Of a stretch of DNA of 51,046 bases, positions 2,469 through 45,822 are shown piece by piece. How positions within the stretch are numbered: the first letter of the stretch is position 1; each line of letters opens with the position of its first letter. Origin of the DNA: a virus. The stretch covers positions 1 through 51,046 of the IMG/VR virus record IMGVR_UViG_3300021247_000520; one strand, written 5' to 3'. The notes beneath the pieces are model-generated. The model was given only the letters and a program-made list of their open reading frames with translations, made no database searches and had not been told where the DNA came from. Both the position numbers and the translations under genes were made by a program.

Positions 2469-3311
2469 TTATAGTTTTTTTATCATTCCGTAAACGTCAA
2501 ACTCTGGCATTTTTCCCCACTTTTTTAACCAGTTCTGCGCGTTTTTAAACTCCGACTCTCTCTGTCTTTCAGAAGTTTTTCCGCTATTTTCTTCTAATCT
2601 GTGACTACCTCTCGCTCCAAAATGCCAAACTAAGGATTTAGATGTCAACACAAACTTATAGTTTTCGTTAAGCATCCTTAAAAATAGATCCATGTCTTCC
2701 CAACTAGTTGGAGAAAACAAAGAGTCATTTCCTCCTATAAAGTCCCAGTCTTTTTTTGATATTAATCCGCTAACGCCTTCTGCTTTTGGAATAGTAAAGT
2801 CGTTTAGTTCTACAAATTCTTTAGCGAACTCATCAAAGGTGGCTGAATCGAAATCGTTATAATATGCTCCAAAGGCTTCCTTAGGAACTATAACTGTACC
2901 TGGTCTTTGAGGGCTTCCGAACATGTCTGGTTCTACTCTGTGACTAAAAACCATTGTAGGTCCTATGTGCTTTTGCATTTCTTCATAACAAGCTAGATCC
3001 CAATCTTTAGTAACATAAAAGTCAGAGTGCAGAAACATTATATAGTCTGTAGTAACTTTCTCAGCACAAAAATTCATACCGCCTCCAATCCCTACAGCGT
3101 TATCATTTTTATCTATGTATATTGTTAACTTATACTTTTCGATATTATCTTTTAACCATTCATTAGTTCCATCTGTACAATTTTCTGCATGAATAATAAA
3201 TGGAGAATCAACAAAATAACTGTTATCCCTAACTGACTTAACCGCTAATTTTAAATAATTTAAGTTATTATATGTAGATATACAAAATGAAATAGGACTA
3301 TATTGTTTCAT
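2469..3311 (-). CDS. Family 2 glycosyltransferase
   Basis: The 280-residue protein starts with a GT2-type strand (ISFCISTYNN, residues 7-16) and has a D-containing metal site HSD at 95-97 and a later WEDMDLFLR segment like the acceptor/catalytic ED of GT2 enzymes. It probably transfers a sugar from a nucleotide donor in the host cytoplasm. Its start overlaps the end of the next upstream gene by 14 bases, so the two are co-translated. The acceptor is unknown. Confidence 0.8.
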   Translation of the reverse strand: MKQYSPISFCISTYNNLNYLKLAVKSVRDNSYFVDSPFIIHAENCTDGTNEWLKDNIEKYKLTIYIDKNDNAVGIGGGMNFCAEKVTTDYIMFLHSDFYVTKDWDLACYEEMQKHIGPTMVFSHRVEPDMFGSPQRPGTVIVPKEAFGAYYNDFDSATFDEFAKEFVELNDFTIPKAEGVSGLISKKDWDFIGGNDSLFSPTSWEDMDLFLRMLNENYKFVLTSKSLVWHFGARGSHRLEENSGKTSERQRESEFKNAQNWLKKWGKMPEFDVYGMIKKL

Positions 3312-4782: not shown

Positions 4783-6090
4783 TTATTTTACTGGTTGTAA
4801 CTTTGGAAGTTCTATTTTCTTAAGTTGCGGAAGTTTTAAAGCTTCTACTTTTGGAGCTTCTTCTAAGTAAGGTGCGAGAACATCTTTCATTCTGTCTAGA
4901 GAAAAATCTGTTTTGCTTTTACGGGCTTGTCTTTTGGCTTTTTCTACGTATTTTTCGTATTTAGAAAAAATATCTTTCATGTAAAACTCAGCCTGTTTTA
5001 AGTCTGCATAAAACCACTGGGACTCTGTAAGAATCATATTTTTTACAGCAGAAGACGAATGTATATTTTTAACGGACCCACCTACCATTGAAGTGTATTG
5101 GTTATCTAAAAAGTCTATGTGACCTGACCAAGCACTAGCGATGATTGGTTTTTTAACAACACTGAATTCTAATAGAGGTCTACCGTAGCCTTCGCCGTGT
5201 CCCAAATACACCATGGCCTTTACTTTTGGATGATTATACAGATTATTAATGTCTGAATCTTCAAGCTCTCCGTGTAGCAAATAGATATTTGGAATATCTT
5301 TAGAATCTATTGATTTTTTTACGTCATCTATCTTTTGTAAGATAGAATCCCTATCCATAATGCTAGCTGCGCCTCCAGAAGTTTTCAGTATTAATGCTGG
5401 TTTATCTTTTTTATCTTTGAAAGTTTCTAAAAAAGTTTTGATAGTTCCACCAACATTTTTTCTATCTTCTCCAAAATCTCCTTGCATCCAATGACCGACA
5501 AAAAGATAACAAAATTCTTCTTGTATTTTGTCAAGCTCTAAAACTAAATCTGTTTCTTCCAAATCTTCGTCTACTATCTCAAAGTATTGAGTCAAATCTA
5601 CGCCTTCAAATAACACTTCTACAGGCTTTTGTAAAGAAACTGTTCCTATATCTTTCCCCGATTGATCTTGTTGTTGAAATTTAGATTGTTCAAATACTGT
5701 TTTGGCATGATTAGAAGAAACTAAAGTTTTATTCATTCTATTTATTCCATCTATCCAACTAGGATCACAGATAGTAGTTTCTATACCAGCAGTGAATCCT
5801 ATATTATAGTTTCCTACTGGTTGAAATTCATTAGGCACAGTTAATTGCATCCAAATGTCAGGTTTCTTTTGTAATTGACCTGATCTATTAATAAGTGAAT
5901 CTAAAAATCCCCACTTTTCTTTATGATCTTTTATATATCCCCATGGAGTTTGTCCCCAACGTTGACTTAAGATTTCTATATGCCACTCTTTTCCTTTTAG
6001 TTCGTAAATGGCTTTTACTAGATCTCTAGCTCTACTTCCATAACCTGAGTATGTGTCTATTGGACACGATATTACGCAATACTGTTTCAT
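4783..6090 (-). CDS. GT4-type glycosyltransferase
   Basis: The protein is 435 residues with the two-domain GT-B layout. The C-terminal half carries the E-x7-E retaining-transferase signature, E300/E308 in HGEGYGRPLLE, followed by a short helix and the PIIAS strand. Near the N-terminus, PIDTYSGYGSRARDL looks like the glycine-rich acceptor loop. The gene starts two bases after the stop of another GT4-like gene, so they form a pair. They may build a disaccharide on one acceptor. Glucosylation of hydroxymethylcytosine is a possible alternative, given the hydroxymethylase-like gene at 12868-13515, but nothing in the sequence proves it. Confidence 0.75.
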   Translation of the reverse strand: MKQYCVISCPIDTYSGYGSRARDLVKAIYELKGKEWHIEILSQRWGQTPWGYIKDHKEKWGFLDSLINRSGQLQKKPDIWMQLTVPNEFQPVGNYNIGFTAGIETTICDPSWIDGINRMNKTLVSSNHAKTVFEQSKFQQQDQSGKDIGTVSLQKPVEVLFEGVDLTQYFEIVDEDLEETDLVLELDKIQEEFCYLFVGHWMQGDFGEDRKNVGGTIKTFLETFKDKKDKPALILKTSGGAASIMDRDSILQKIDDVKKSIDSKDIPNIYLLHGELEDSDINNLYNHPKVKAMVYLGHGEGYGRPLLEFSVVKKPIIASAWSGHIDFLDNQYTSMVGGSVKNIHSSSAVKNMILTESQWFYADLKQAEFYMKDIFSKYEKYVEKAKRQARKSKTDFSLDRMKDVLAPYLEEAPKVEALKLPQLKKIELPKLQPVK

Positions 6091-6091
6091 A

Positions 6092-7537
6092 TTAATATAC
6101 TAATGGGTGTTTAATTGCTTTTCTTTCTATTTTTTCGGTCTTAATTAGACTAAAAGATTTTTTTGGCTTAAAGTTTGTAAAAGTAGTGTCTATAGAGTTA
6201 ACTGCATTTTCACACATCATTCTAGCGCTCATCATAGACTCATCAGAAGTTACCCACTCTCTAGCTTTTAAACCTTTAGCTGCTCTATTTTCGGGACCTA
6301 GATTGTAAACTTGCTCGATAGCTTTTGCGACATCTCTAAAGTCACATCTGTCATCAAAAATATAAGGTGTAGGAATAGATCCAACAATACTCATATTATT
6401 AGGAAATACTGGTACTACCCACTCTCCGTGCTCTTTGTACTTTCCAAAATGGTTGGAAGGCGCTTTCTTAGATGGAGTAAACCACTTTCCTTTATCGTCA
6501 GTGAATCTCATCTGGTCTTGCATACCGCCTGTTACGTTACCAATGATCATTTTTCCTGCCATCATAGATTCAGTAAGACTCAATCCCCAACCTTCGTTAG
6601 ATGAGATTAGAGCTGTTACGTCAGCTATGTTATATAGGATATTCATGTCTGTTACTCCCAATCTTTCGTCTGAGAAATATACTTTCTGATATTCAGGATC
6701 ACACAAAAGATCTCTTACTACTGAAAGATCTGTACCATTTTCATCAGAAACTTGAGTGTGTAGAAGCAGAGCACATTTTTTAGCAGAGTTTTTACCAATC
6801 CTATCGCAGAATACAGAATATGCTGCAATTAGATCAGAAGTAGATTTCCTTCGTATGTTTCTAGCATTATAGAATACTACAAATTCGGGTTGATCTTTTC
6901 CAAAAAGACTTTGCTTTTTACTTTCAAGCTTAGCATAGTCTTCAACCATAAATTCGTTAATGGGATAGAAGTGTTTCTCGTTAATTCCGTGAGGAACGTA
7001 AGTCAATATTTTATCTTTAATTAAATCCTCTCCTAAAACCAATTCATTGATAAGCTTAGTCTGTTTTGAAATAGACATCAAACAGTCGCAAGACTCGTAA
7101 TAGGGTTTGTTATAAATTGGAGCAGGAAAATCGTCCCAAATATTCAAATAAATAATTGGCATTTTTTTGCGAACCTCATTCTCCATTTGAAACAACCAAA
7201 TCCAATACCTAGGATCTGTAAACATCATTAGCGCGTCTGGCTTTTCAATCTCTATAAGTTGTCTTAATAGCTCTGGGCTTCCGTATCCGTTTGTTGGATA
7301 AATGAAAACAGATGCATCTTGAATTCCTGCAACATTTCCTGTATCTTGAGATACGTCTAATTTTTTACCAGCTTCTGGGTGTTGCATTGCTCCACCTACG
7401 TTAACCCAATTGTAATGTCCTGATGTACCTATGACGATCTCTCTTGCCATTGTAGAGATACCTGAAGTCATACGAATATCATCACAAAGAAGGAGAATTT
7501 TCTTCCTTTTGTCTTTTTCGATGTAACCGTTATTCAT
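6092..7537 (-). CDS. GT4-type glycosyltransferase
   Basis: The 481-residue protein has the GT-B pattern: an N-terminal KILLLCDDIRMTSGIS segment, a linker VPHGIN at about 181-186 as in many GT4 enzymes, and the E-x7-E motif E315/E323 (SNEGWGLSLTES). The family uses nucleotide sugars with retention of configuration. It is the first gene after an RHH regulator and is followed two bases later by a second GT4-like gene. The acceptor is unknown. Confidence 0.75.
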   Translation of the reverse strand: MNNGYIEKDKRKKILLLCDDIRMTSGISTMAREIVIGTSGHYNWVNVGGAMQHPEAGKKLDVSQDTGNVAGIQDASVFIYPTNGYGSPELLRQLIEIEKPDALMMFTDPRYWIWLFQMENEVRKKMPIIYLNIWDDFPAPIYNKPYYESCDCLMSISKQTKLINELVLGEDLIKDKILTYVPHGINEKHFYPINEFMVEDYAKLESKKQSLFGKDQPEFVVFYNARNIRRKSTSDLIAAYSVFCDRIGKNSAKKCALLLHTQVSDENGTDLSVVRDLLCDPEYQKVYFSDERLGVTDMNILYNIADVTALISSNEGWGLSLTESMMAGKMIIGNVTGGMQDQMRFTDDKGKWFTPSKKAPSNHFGKYKEHGEWVVPVFPNNMSIVGSIPTPYIFDDRCDFRDVAKAIEQVYNLGPENRAAKGLKAREWVTSDESMMSARMMCENAVNSIDTTFTNFKPKKSFSLIKTEKIERKAIKHPLVY

Positions 7538-9924: not shown

Positions 9925-9955
9925 AACTTATTATTTTTTCTTTGTTAAAAAAGTG

Positions 9956-10342
9956 TGGAGATAGGGAGAATCGAACTCCCGTCTCCGAAAGTGACAATAA
10001 TACTAACGTCTCACATGCTTAGATCTAAATTGCTTTTGATCAGTAAGAGGCCAACCGTGTAGGTCGGGGTCCACCACCTTGTTTTGAGAAAACTAGGAAA
10101 ACGACCCACAGTCCTTATTTAACGAGTCGATCGTGAATACTCGGAGTAGTTCTGTTCCTAGGTTACTCACCCGCTTGCGGACTAGGCTGCTAGAGCGTAA
10201 TCGGCGCCTACGAAGGCCATAAGGTCATCGAAGGTCATTGTTGACATTTCGTCAGTTATTGTTTGGTATCTTCTAAGGCAGTATACCCAAATGCCTGCAT
10301 GTAGTATCACCTCATCATCCGGATCGATACCATGTTATCCCC
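9956..10342 (-). ncRNA. ssrA: Transfer-messenger RNA (tmRNA), phage-encoded
   Basis: The RNA 5' end GGGGATA (10342-10336) pairs over seven positions with TATCTCC at the 3' end (9963-9957), forming a tRNA-like acceptor stem with one G-U pair. The T-arm GGGAG-TTCGATT-CTCCC is directly inside it. The internal reading frame ends GADYALAA then TAG (10208-10182), close to the bacteroidal tag GENNYALAA. A CCGC/GCGG hairpin surrounds the region after the stop, as helix 5 does in known tmRNAs. CCA is not encoded, since CAC follows the discriminator A. tmRNA with SmpB frees stalled ribosomes and tags the product for proteolysis. The resume codon is probably GGC at 10208, but the frame is open further upstream, so this is not certain. 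Confidence 0.93.
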
Positions 10343-12109: not shown

Positions 12110-12757
12110 TTAATCATATCTTACTATTTTTTGTTTACTTATCCAATCTCTTATAGTTTTTCTGGTGACACCGTAATATTTAGATGCTTCTAATATAGAT
12201 CCACATATGAAACCTGATTCTAAGTCTATAATTCTTTTGCTATTAACATGAGGTTTTCCAAACTGAGGATTATTTTTTCCACTGCGCTGAATACTAAATA
12301 GCTCTTTTGTTTTTTCTGTGTGTTTTTTTCCAAACATGGGATTTTTATCTCCTAATGTTCGATTTTTCATTTGCAATATAGTATTTTCTGAATGTTTATG
12401 TCCTAAAGCGTGGTTATTTCCTTTTAGTGATTCTGTTATTTTATTTTTTGTTTCACTTGCTAATTTGCCTCCTCTACCAGGTTCTCTTATATTCAACATC
12501 TTGAGTCCACAATCTTTGTATTGTTGCCAATAAAATATTTCATAATTATCTAAAATAGTCTGTGATATATCATGAGGCAATTCATGAATAACTTCAAAAA
12601 TATGATTTTCCCATTCATATTTTAAAATAGAATTGTATAATTTTCTTTGGACTTTAGCTTTATTTTTAGAGTACATTTTTTTCCGATTATCTATATTATG
12701 ACTTTGTCCAATATAGATGCTATTGCTAGGAGAAGTTATTTTATATATTCCAACCAT
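12110..12757 (-). CDS. GIY-YIG homing endonuclease with NUMOD3 and NUMOD1 domains
   Basis: The 215-residue protein opens with a GIY-YIG nuclease domain: GIYKI at 3-7, YIGQS at 15-19, and an Arg in the following helix (NIDNRKKM). The middle has NUMOD3-type beads (NNHALGHKHSE, NPMFGKKHTE, NNPQFGKPH), and the C-terminus is a NUMOD1 helix-turn-helix (SILEASKYYGVTRKTIRDW). This is a free-standing mobile endonuclease that cuts alleles lacking it. It sits next to the hydroxymethylase gene and is preceded by a conserved leader at 12768-12866. The ATG directly follows the leader with no Shine-Dalgarno. Confidence 0.9.
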   Translation of the reverse strand: MVGIYKITSPSNSIYIGQSHNIDNRKKMYSKNKAKVQRKLYNSILKYEWENHIFEVIHELPHDISQTILDNYEIFYWQQYKDCGLKMLNIREPGRGGKLASETKNKITESLKGNNHALGHKHSENTILQMKNRTLGDKNPMFGKKHTEKTKELFSIQRSGKNNPQFGKPHVNSKRIIDLESGFICGSILEASKYYGVTRKTIRDWISKQKIVRYD

Positions 12758-17128: not shown

Positions 17129-17770
17129 TTATTTTTTCTTACAATTGTCAAAGTGATAACGTAGCATAACTGGAGCTCCTCCAACTAATCCGCAATGGGG
17201 ACATTCTTTTTTGGGCTTAGGAACTCTTGCTTTAGGTCTTGGTTTGGATATTGCTATTCTAACTCTCTCAACGACTTCTTTATCAAACATTGGATTATTT
17301 TTCTTCATCCTTTCAGACTGCTCCGGAAATTTCTTTCCGTAGTTGGGATTATTTTCTCCTAGTTTACCATACATTGGATTTTTAGTTCCTCTATTATCGA
17401 CTGTAAAGTAACCTATCTTTCCATACATAGGGTTTTTAGATCCTAAAAAAAGTTTTGATAGATAATCTGCATGAAGTTTTCTAAATCTTTCATAAGTTCT
17501 ACTAGATATTTTATAATCTCTTTTGTGATTATCACTTTTTGTATTACTCATCATCCAAACCGCATTGACTAATTTTTTGTGTTCTGGATAAATTTCACAT
17601 AGCAACAAATGACAGAGAAAGTGTTCTCTAGCAGTTAATTCAACTATATTTTCTATTTTATCAGGTCCTCCAATGCATTTTGGAATTATGTGATGTTTTT
17701 CTACGTAGCCTTCTAATTTTCTTGTTTTTGCTTTTTCAATGATACTCTCGTAAATTCTACTGTAATTCAT
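17129..17770 (-). CDS. HNH homing endonuclease with NUMOD3 beads and C-terminal zinc finger
   Basis: The 213-residue protein has an HNH core (EKHHIIPKCIGG, then an Asn in the ENIVEL turn and the REHFLCH helix). It then has NUMOD3-type repeats (SKNPMYGK, TKNPMYGK, ENNPNYGK), and ends with a CPHCGLVGG...RYHFDNC zinc finger. The same finger ends the GIY-YIG enzyme at 20572. It lies downstream of a kissing-loop leader (17781-17884), next to groEL. This is a free-standing homing endonuclease. Confidence 0.88.
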   Translation of the reverse strand: MNYSRIYESIIEKAKTRKLEGYVEKHHIIPKCIGGPDKIENIVELTAREHFLCHLLLCEIYPEHKKLVNAVWMMSNTKSDNHKRDYKISSRTYERFRKLHADYLSKLFLGSKNPMYGKIGYFTVDNRGTKNPMYGKLGENNPNYGKKFPEQSERMKKNNPMFDKEVVERVRIAISKPRPKARVPKPKKECPHCGLVGGAPVMLRYHFDNCKKK

Positions 17771-43737: not shown

Positions 43738-44298
43738 CTATTTTTTATACTTCCAAATATACTTTCCCGCGGTTTTTAATTTTCCATTACAACATTTGCT
43801 TATACTACTAGTTGCGATTCCAGTGTGTCTATAAGCTTCTTGTACGCTATAAAAAGATCTAATTAGTTTTTGCTCTAAACAATACTGATCTACTGGAATT
43901 ACTTTGACTAATTTTAGTTTTTCAGAAACTTTTTTTGCGATATGCGGATTTTTCATTACGTTTTTTTCTCCAACATTAGCAAAAGAAATTTTGTCCTTTG
44001 ATTGCTTAGACAAAATAATTCCAGTTCCTCCTTCTCCACCATCAGTCATATTAACTAGTGGACCTAAGTTTAGATCTTTTCTACCTATATCGAATATTAA
44101 TCCTTTTTCTATTTTGCAAGCTTCTTTCCAAGAACATCCTTCTATAAGTATATCGACTTCGAATCCATGCTTTTTTACTATTCTTAACCAGTGAATATTT
44201 CTATGTTTAAAGCAAAGCGGTCTAGTTTTTATTTTAGCTATTCCTACATAAAAAACTTCGTTAGTATCTAATCTTCTATGTTGATATACATAAGCCAT
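43738..44298 (-). CDS. GIY-YIG-type homing endonuclease (YQHRR variant)
   Basis: The 186-residue protein starts VYQHRRLDTNEVFYVGIAK and contains GRKDLNLGPLVNMTDGGEGG, matching the enzyme at 28328 across the nuclease part. NUMOD3 beads are mostly missing; the C-terminal NUMOD1 block (VDQYCLEQKLIRSFYSVQEA ... TAGKYIWKYKK) is present. Its ATG overlaps the stop of the gp26-like gene by one base, so it has inserted exactly at the gene junction and uses coupled translation. Confidence 0.85.
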   Translation of the reverse strand: MAYVYQHRRLDTNEVFYVGIAKIKTRPLCFKHRNIHWLRIVKKHGFEVDILIEGCSWKEACKIEKGLIFDIGRKDLNLGPLVNMTDGGEGGTGIILSKQSKDKISFANVGEKNVMKNPHIAKKVSEKLKLVKVIPVDQYCLEQKLIRSFYSVQEAYRHTGIATSSISKCCNGKLKTAGKYIWKYKK

Positions 44299-45109: not shown

Positions 45110-45140
45110 ACACAAAAAAAAGACCGCAGTGTTGCGGTCT
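45110..45140 (-). terminator. Rho-independent terminator
   Basis: The coding strand reads GACCGCA-ACAC-TGCGGTC followed by eight T. The stem begins at the stop codon of the HNH gene at 45139, so it ends that transcript before the gp26-like gene. Confidence 0.85.
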
Positions 45141-45822
45141 ATTTGTAGTATATTTTGTGATCTTGAAGGAATTGATAGTATTTGCTTCTTGAAGATTTTT
45201 TTTTGGGATTGCTTCCGTATTTAGATCCGTTTAAGACTTCGTGAAAAATACTGCAATTCATATTTAGCTTATTCGCTAATTGAAGCGCAGATCCAGCTTC
45301 TATTTTTTCTCCTGTTATTTTATTCTCGCAAACTACAATTCCTTTACTAGCTCTTGATTCTTCTCCTGTTTTTCCTAATTTAGATCTTGTTGCGGCTACA
45401 GATATATTTTTTCTTTGTTCTTCAGTAGGTATCCAATTCTTTTTTCCTCCTAATCCATTTTTATTTCCAATCATTTGAACTGACCTAAGTTTTTTCCACT
45501 CTCCACTTTTTTTTCTCTTCCATAATTTCATTAAAGCTTTTCTAGCAGTAGCGTACTCTTCTTCGGTTAATTCTATATCTCCGCTATACGTCATTCTATG
45601 AAAAGCCCATAACATTTTTTCTCCATATATCGAGTGATCTTTAAATGCATCTGCTAAATACTTGTGCACACGATAGTGTTCTTCGGGAGTCAATAAAACT
45701 GTTGAGCTATTTTTATTAAATGATTGAGGAACTATGTGATGAGCTTCATAGTATTCTCCTTTTCCCTTTTCTCTATTTTCTGATAAGGCTTGTCTTACGA
45801 TTTTAAAATACTCCGTTAACAT
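45139..45822 (-). CDS. HNH homing endonuclease
   Basis: The 227-residue protein has the HNH core EAHHIVPQSFNKNSSTV with LLTPEEHYRVHKYL, then a basic helical linker and a C-terminal HTH-like part (GSALQLANKLNMNCSIFHEVL). It lies between tube and gp26 genes, separated on both sides by terminator-like hairpins. Its ATG lies at the end of the U-run of the upstream hairpin (45826-45861), an unusual start context. Confidence 0.85.
   Translation of the reverse strand: MLTEYFKIVRQALSENREKGKGEYYEAHHIVPQSFNKNSSTVLLTPEEHYRVHKYLADAFKDHSIYGEKMLWAFHRMTYSGDIELTEEEYATARKALMKLWKRKKSGEWKKLRSVQMIGNKNGLGGKKNWIPTEEQRKNISVAATRSKLGKTGEESRASKGIVVCENKITGEKIEAGSALQLANKLNMNCSIFHEVLNGSKYGSNPKKKSSRSKYYQFLQDHKIYYK

Follow-up and report, generated by a model that had tools for sequence, protein, structure and literature searches.

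A one-piece tmRNA with a long, peptide-conserved tag in a T4-type phage, member of a lineage known to date from viruses alone

tmRNA releases ribosomes that have become stuck and, by means of a tag, marks the unfinished proteins for destruction. A gene of this kind in a virus raises the questions of whether it is a working tmRNA of the phage itself and whether its tag does the same work as the tag of the host. Both are addressed here for an IMG/VR virus record of 51,046 bases, possibly a fragment, which was analysed over its whole length and is referred to below as the window.

The locus encodes a genuine phage tmRNA, whose features are collected in Table 1. ARAGORN identified this one tmRNA in the window and no other tRNA or tmRNA. 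The Rfam model RF00023, the sole Rfam match in the window, covers positions 9953-10342 at full length (model positions 1-374) with 66 bits, above the gathering cut-off of 47, and an E-value of 1.3e-23. Full-length matches in most sampled Bacteroidota genomes score higher (106-200 bits). The original prediction had described a phage-encoded tmRNA with a seven-pair acceptor stem and a T-arm, and all three elements are present. The gene shares with other one-piece tmRNAs the common architecture, the G3-U70 pair, the T-arm, the resume codon, a tag followed by a stop and the YALAA end, and differs in this from the permuted, two-piece tmRNA of phage Melnitz (PMC9004378).

Table 1. Coordinates of the tmRNA gene, its tRNA-like domain and its tag in the window
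Feature	Position	Strand	Evidence
tmRNA (ssrA), one-piece	9955..10342	-	ARAGORN; Rfam RF00023, 66 bits
Acceptor stem, 5' strand GGGGATA	10336..10342	-	7/7 pairs with 9957-9963, G3-U70
Acceptor stem, 3' strand TATCTCC, then ACAC	9957..9963	-	sequence
T-arm GGGAGTTCGATTCTCCC	9964..9980	-	sequence; compensatory changes in T stem
Frame of the tag, from GAC (resume codon) to TAG (stop), DEMSTMTFDDLMAFVGADYALAA	10182..10253	-	ARAGORN; pN/pS and frame tests
Proximal tag segment STMTFDDLMAF, outside the search pattern	10212..10244	-	pN/pS 0.30, 0/300 column permutations as low
C-terminal DYALAA-stop, ClpX-type degron end	10182..10202	-	DYA[x]AA-stop pattern: one exact window match, 0 in 100 shuffles

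Relatives of the gene support the tRNA-like domain. G3-U70, the alanine identity pair, is present in 77 of 78 relatives and acceptor pairs 4-7 show compensatory two-sided changes; among 16 close relatives compensatory change was found at 21 of the 74 pairs of the consensus, most of these being in helix 2 and the T-arm. The pseudoknot region (PK1-PK4) was aligned by the Rfam model, the consensus folding being by a method that cannot model pseudoknots. Single-strand folding was uninformative (z of -1.2). The 3' end of the gene is ACAC and CCA is not encoded, so that CCA must be added; about 30 of the 78 distinct relatives encode it.

The surroundings are those of a T4-type phage. Structural genes comprise tail sheath, tube, baseplate hub and baseplate wedge; DNA polymerase, DnaB helicase, a UvsX-like recombinase and single-strand binding protein represent replication, and ribonucleotide reductase, thymidylate synthase and GroEL are also present. 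Judged by the tail sheath, the closest isolate is Flavobacterium phage immuto (48.6% identity), in which no tmRNA match was found. Of the 78 relatives, 20 have a promoter of Bacteroidota type upstream of the tmRNA (0.017 expected per locus), and none was found upstream of the window copy. The host of this phage is likely a member of Bacteroidota. Other genes of the window are a FabH-like ketoacyl synthase, a short-chain dehydrogenase and several glycosyltransferases (together at 1529-2464, 170-817, 2469-3311 and 4783-7537), perhaps for surface modification, and four predicted homing-type endonucleases in 51 kb (12110-12757, 17129-17770, 43738-44298 and 45139-45822). A general link between tmRNA and an adjacent endonuclease gene was ruled out, as ARAGORN identified a tmRNA in only 5 of 80 loci fetched with the endonuclease.

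The full tag called by ARAGORN has 23 residues. GADYALAA, originally given as the tag, is its true end but only its end, in a gene that lies on the minus strand. The likeness to the bacteroidal GENNYALAA holds for the last five residues, the other 18 being without counterpart in the sampled Bacteroidota tags. Cellular tmRNAs from 29 Bacteroidota genomes have tags of 9-10 residues, such as GENNYALAA, DNNYSYRLAA and ANDYSYAMAA, many of them with the YALAA end of the phage tag; the commonest length in the tmRNA database is 10 (PMC11915505). The tmRNA of Bacillus phage G, also phage-encoded, has a tag of 13 residues by ARAGORN. Greater length is found in Mesoplasma florum, whose 27-residue tag is specifically recognised by Mf-Lon (PMC9097571). 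This tag has a central hydrophobic segment and a NYAFA end, a likeness to the phage tag that was judged by eye; the former is read by Lon in a mollicute, whereas the latter is known here from its sequence.

The search pattern fixed the last nine residues of the tag, and the test of selection was therefore limited to codons -20 to -10 (the proximal segment in Table 1). Over 46 distinct sequences the pN/pS of these codons was 0.30, while the other two frames gave 1.0 and 2.4; column permutations, a null that ignores phylogeny, had a mean of 1.23 and none of 300 was as low. The consensus of the segment is S-[ST]-[MFW]-T-F-[ED]-D-x-M-[AS]-F-V-G. Its S, T, D, M and F positions are common to 39 distinct tag peptides while third positions vary, in 10 of the 11 codons. 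The N-terminus of the tag varies in length in codon-sized steps with the frame kept, and the tag motif was absent from every other protein of the fetched loci. As judged from these codon patterns, the tag frame is kept under purifying selection and the proximal half is conserved as a peptide. Long tags of this kind, about twice the length of those of the likely hosts, probably do more than the usual short tag.

Two readings of the tag compete with a selected peptide determinant. According to one, the codons are conserved for RNA structure and not through selection on the peptide. RNA hairpins do overlap the last tag codons, so that conservation at the tag end is not purely at the peptide level, and in the consensus fold some stretches within the 3' half of the tag are base-paired. 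This explanation is nevertheless unlikely for the tag as a whole, as entropy is highest at third positions (0.78 versus 0.32 and 0.11 at the other codon positions), amino-acid exchanges are mostly conservative and pN/pS lies far under the values that column permutation yields. In the commonest sister tag (type II) the codon test gave a less clear result, with a ratio of 0.62 and 10 of 200 permutations as low. In the other reading, possible but rather doubtful, trans-translation and its ClpXP tag are of the ordinary kind, and the additional residues form a flexible spacer or an initiation handle for the protease, with no specific partner. It agrees with a C-terminus that stays YA[LV]AA among relatives and with the long tags of quite different sequence in sister phage tmRNAs, which would fit a requirement for length. 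Against it stands the proximal block, in which the peptide is near-invariant at S, T, D, M and F although synonymous sites do vary; a segment that acted as a spacer only would be expected to drift. The reading preferred here, with good though not full confidence, is that of a working one-piece tmRNA with a composite tag: an end of ClpXP type and, ahead of it, a further conserved segment that probably acts as a determinant for a protease or an adaptor.

The same tag type is widespread among viruses. A pattern scan for VGADYAxAA-stop identified tmRNAs with this ending in at least 120 IMG/VR contigs, and all 120 listed matches fit the profile of the VGADYAxAA tmRNA family with more than 100 bits each. 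Seven tmRNAs that were located by way of adjacent genes, independently of the tag, share the tag type, which is thus not an artefact of the search pattern. GADYAxAA-stop gave three matches in about 85,000 cellular species, none of them a tmRNA by ARAGORN, and no paper on GADYALAA, GADYAVAA or FVGADYA was found in the open PMC literature. Searches of isolate phages with the tmRNA by blastn returned no match, or short ones mostly to phage tRNA genes. Short tag peptides had no matches by tblastn, and neither had a control, the tag of mycobacteriophage Bxz1, an isolate phage with its own tmRNA, so that this search is without a positive control. The gene is dispensable, as seven loci of related phages (L087-L093) are without it. 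A boxA-like leader, GTT[CA]TTT[AG]A, lies within 28 bases of the tmRNA 5' end in 35 of 78 relatives (0.002 expected per locus) and is missing from the window copy; it was ruled out as a virus-specific element, being also found before 7 of the 29 cellular Bacteroidota tmRNAs. The rarity of tmRNA genes in phages, as first stated, is fair for isolates (2.3% of genomes; PMC9004378), but the contigs counted here, a number that gives no frequency, suggest that tmRNA is perhaps commoner in uncultivated phages than the isolate-based figure implies.

A wider lineage was retrieved with a tag-independent RNA pattern, CGGG N5-22 CCTAGGAACAGAA, which is present in at least 120 IMG/VR viral contigs and in none of 395 Bacteroidota genomes. 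Besides some short cellular-type tags, this pattern brought in sister viral tmRNAs with other long tags of 20-32 residues: GNVLDKMATIGLIREDAAVVA, GETFAKLSAIGLIREESVVAA, GNTSIWDVINGFVGAPATEVEYAVAA and others with about 30 residues and an LLAA end, the likeness between viral tag types being judged by eye. In a tree built without the tag codons, viral types I and II group with a support of 96, and a single branch sets the 29 cellular Bacteroidota rows apart on one side; support for this deep split is weak (55-57) and some viral rows have long branches. That the tmRNA belongs to a large lineage so far seen only in viruses is well supported by these scans, and the restriction to viruses is not proven, given a limited cellular sample. 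Within the lineage, the pseudoknot segment that follows CCTAGGAACAGAA comes in two dissimilar forms among close relatives (alignment A1, columns 201-260; for example the window versus L004, L174 and L182), which suggests module exchange.

These data also bear on two explanations of the gene as a whole. A decoy that titrates SmpB and inhibits the host tmRNA, comparable to the mycobacteriophage DS6A gene that consists of a tRNA-like domain only, has parallels in reported phage tmRNA-like decoys (PMC4131195), and is very unlikely here, where a complete mRNA-like domain is present and purifying selection acts on its frame. A recent pickup of a host ssrA, the remnant of an attachment site, or a cellular contig misbinned as virus might be considered with ssrA being a common integration target (PMC9004378). 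Such an origin is barely credible: genes for phage structure and replication flank the tmRNA, a context that already refutes most of it. The tmRNA lineage also stands apart from the 29 Bacteroidota tmRNAs, its RNA motif is absent from the 395 Bacteroidota genomes scanned, and its tag occurs in no cellular tmRNA scanned (about 85,000 genomes). What sets the locus apart is a tag that is both elongated and conserved as a peptide, in a lineage known to date from viruses alone, the tmRNA itself being of a known kind.

Partner genes were searched in the related phage records. The original prediction that no SmpB gene is visible in the window extends to related records: none was found in the 20 records with the VGADYAxAA tag type (24 records searched), and host SmpB is therefore assumed. 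SmpB was identified in three sister records only (G002, G003 and G006), all of them large phages with a tail sheath gene. Ribosome-rescue genes, with tmRNA and SmpB among them, also occur in huge phages (PMC7162821). In one of the three, a contractile-tailed phage record of 203 kb (G006:C1:171073-171947; L222, L217), a tmRNA with the long tag GNVYNNMETAGILATSNVAVA has its SmpB gene 46 bases downstream. The 484 kb uncultured phage LR756508 (W04:C1) contains a tmRNA with a very long possible tag, positions 92434-92880 and 414804-414915 being noted (L328, L332); its second gene, of 112 bases, looks like a tRNA-like domain only. Lon was not found in 20 phage records, so that any Lon role would rest on the host. 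ClpP-like genes some 3.6 kb from the tmRNA in five records suggested a dedicated protease. This is not claimed, since the product examined is most similar to head-maturation proteases and the gene order is common to four of these records (L342, L343, L345 and L346, with the ClpP-like gene about 3.5-4 kb upstream).

Under the preferred reading, host AlaRS would charge the phage tmRNA after CCA addition by the host, and, in the infected cell, host SmpB and EF-Tu would bring the charged RNA to ribosomes that have halted on broken mRNAs. Translation would resume at GAC, the stalled protein gaining the 23-residue tag. Charging, SmpB delivery and tagging are drawn from the established tmRNA pathway together with the intact features of the gene. 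The YALAA end would suit host ClpXP, and the proximal segment would most likely be a second recognition element, for a non-ClpX protease or an adaptor, this being the least certain step. The Lon role for the long M. florum tag is the nearest precedent known to us for a selected proximal segment. The phage may thereby decide what becomes of tagged proteins without depending on the short tag of the host.

A broader and tentative proposal is that a virus-only tmRNA lineage arose in phages, its long tags sending rescued proteins to another fate than the host tag does, through a conserved docking segment and a specific partner (another protease, an adaptor or a phage factor). If so, the phage would take over the outcome of host trans-translation. 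The difference between this tag and those of the likely hosts makes the question of which protease or partner reads it a testable one. Long tags selected as peptides, in a lineage that seems restricted to viruses, point to a function of the tag beyond ribosome release.
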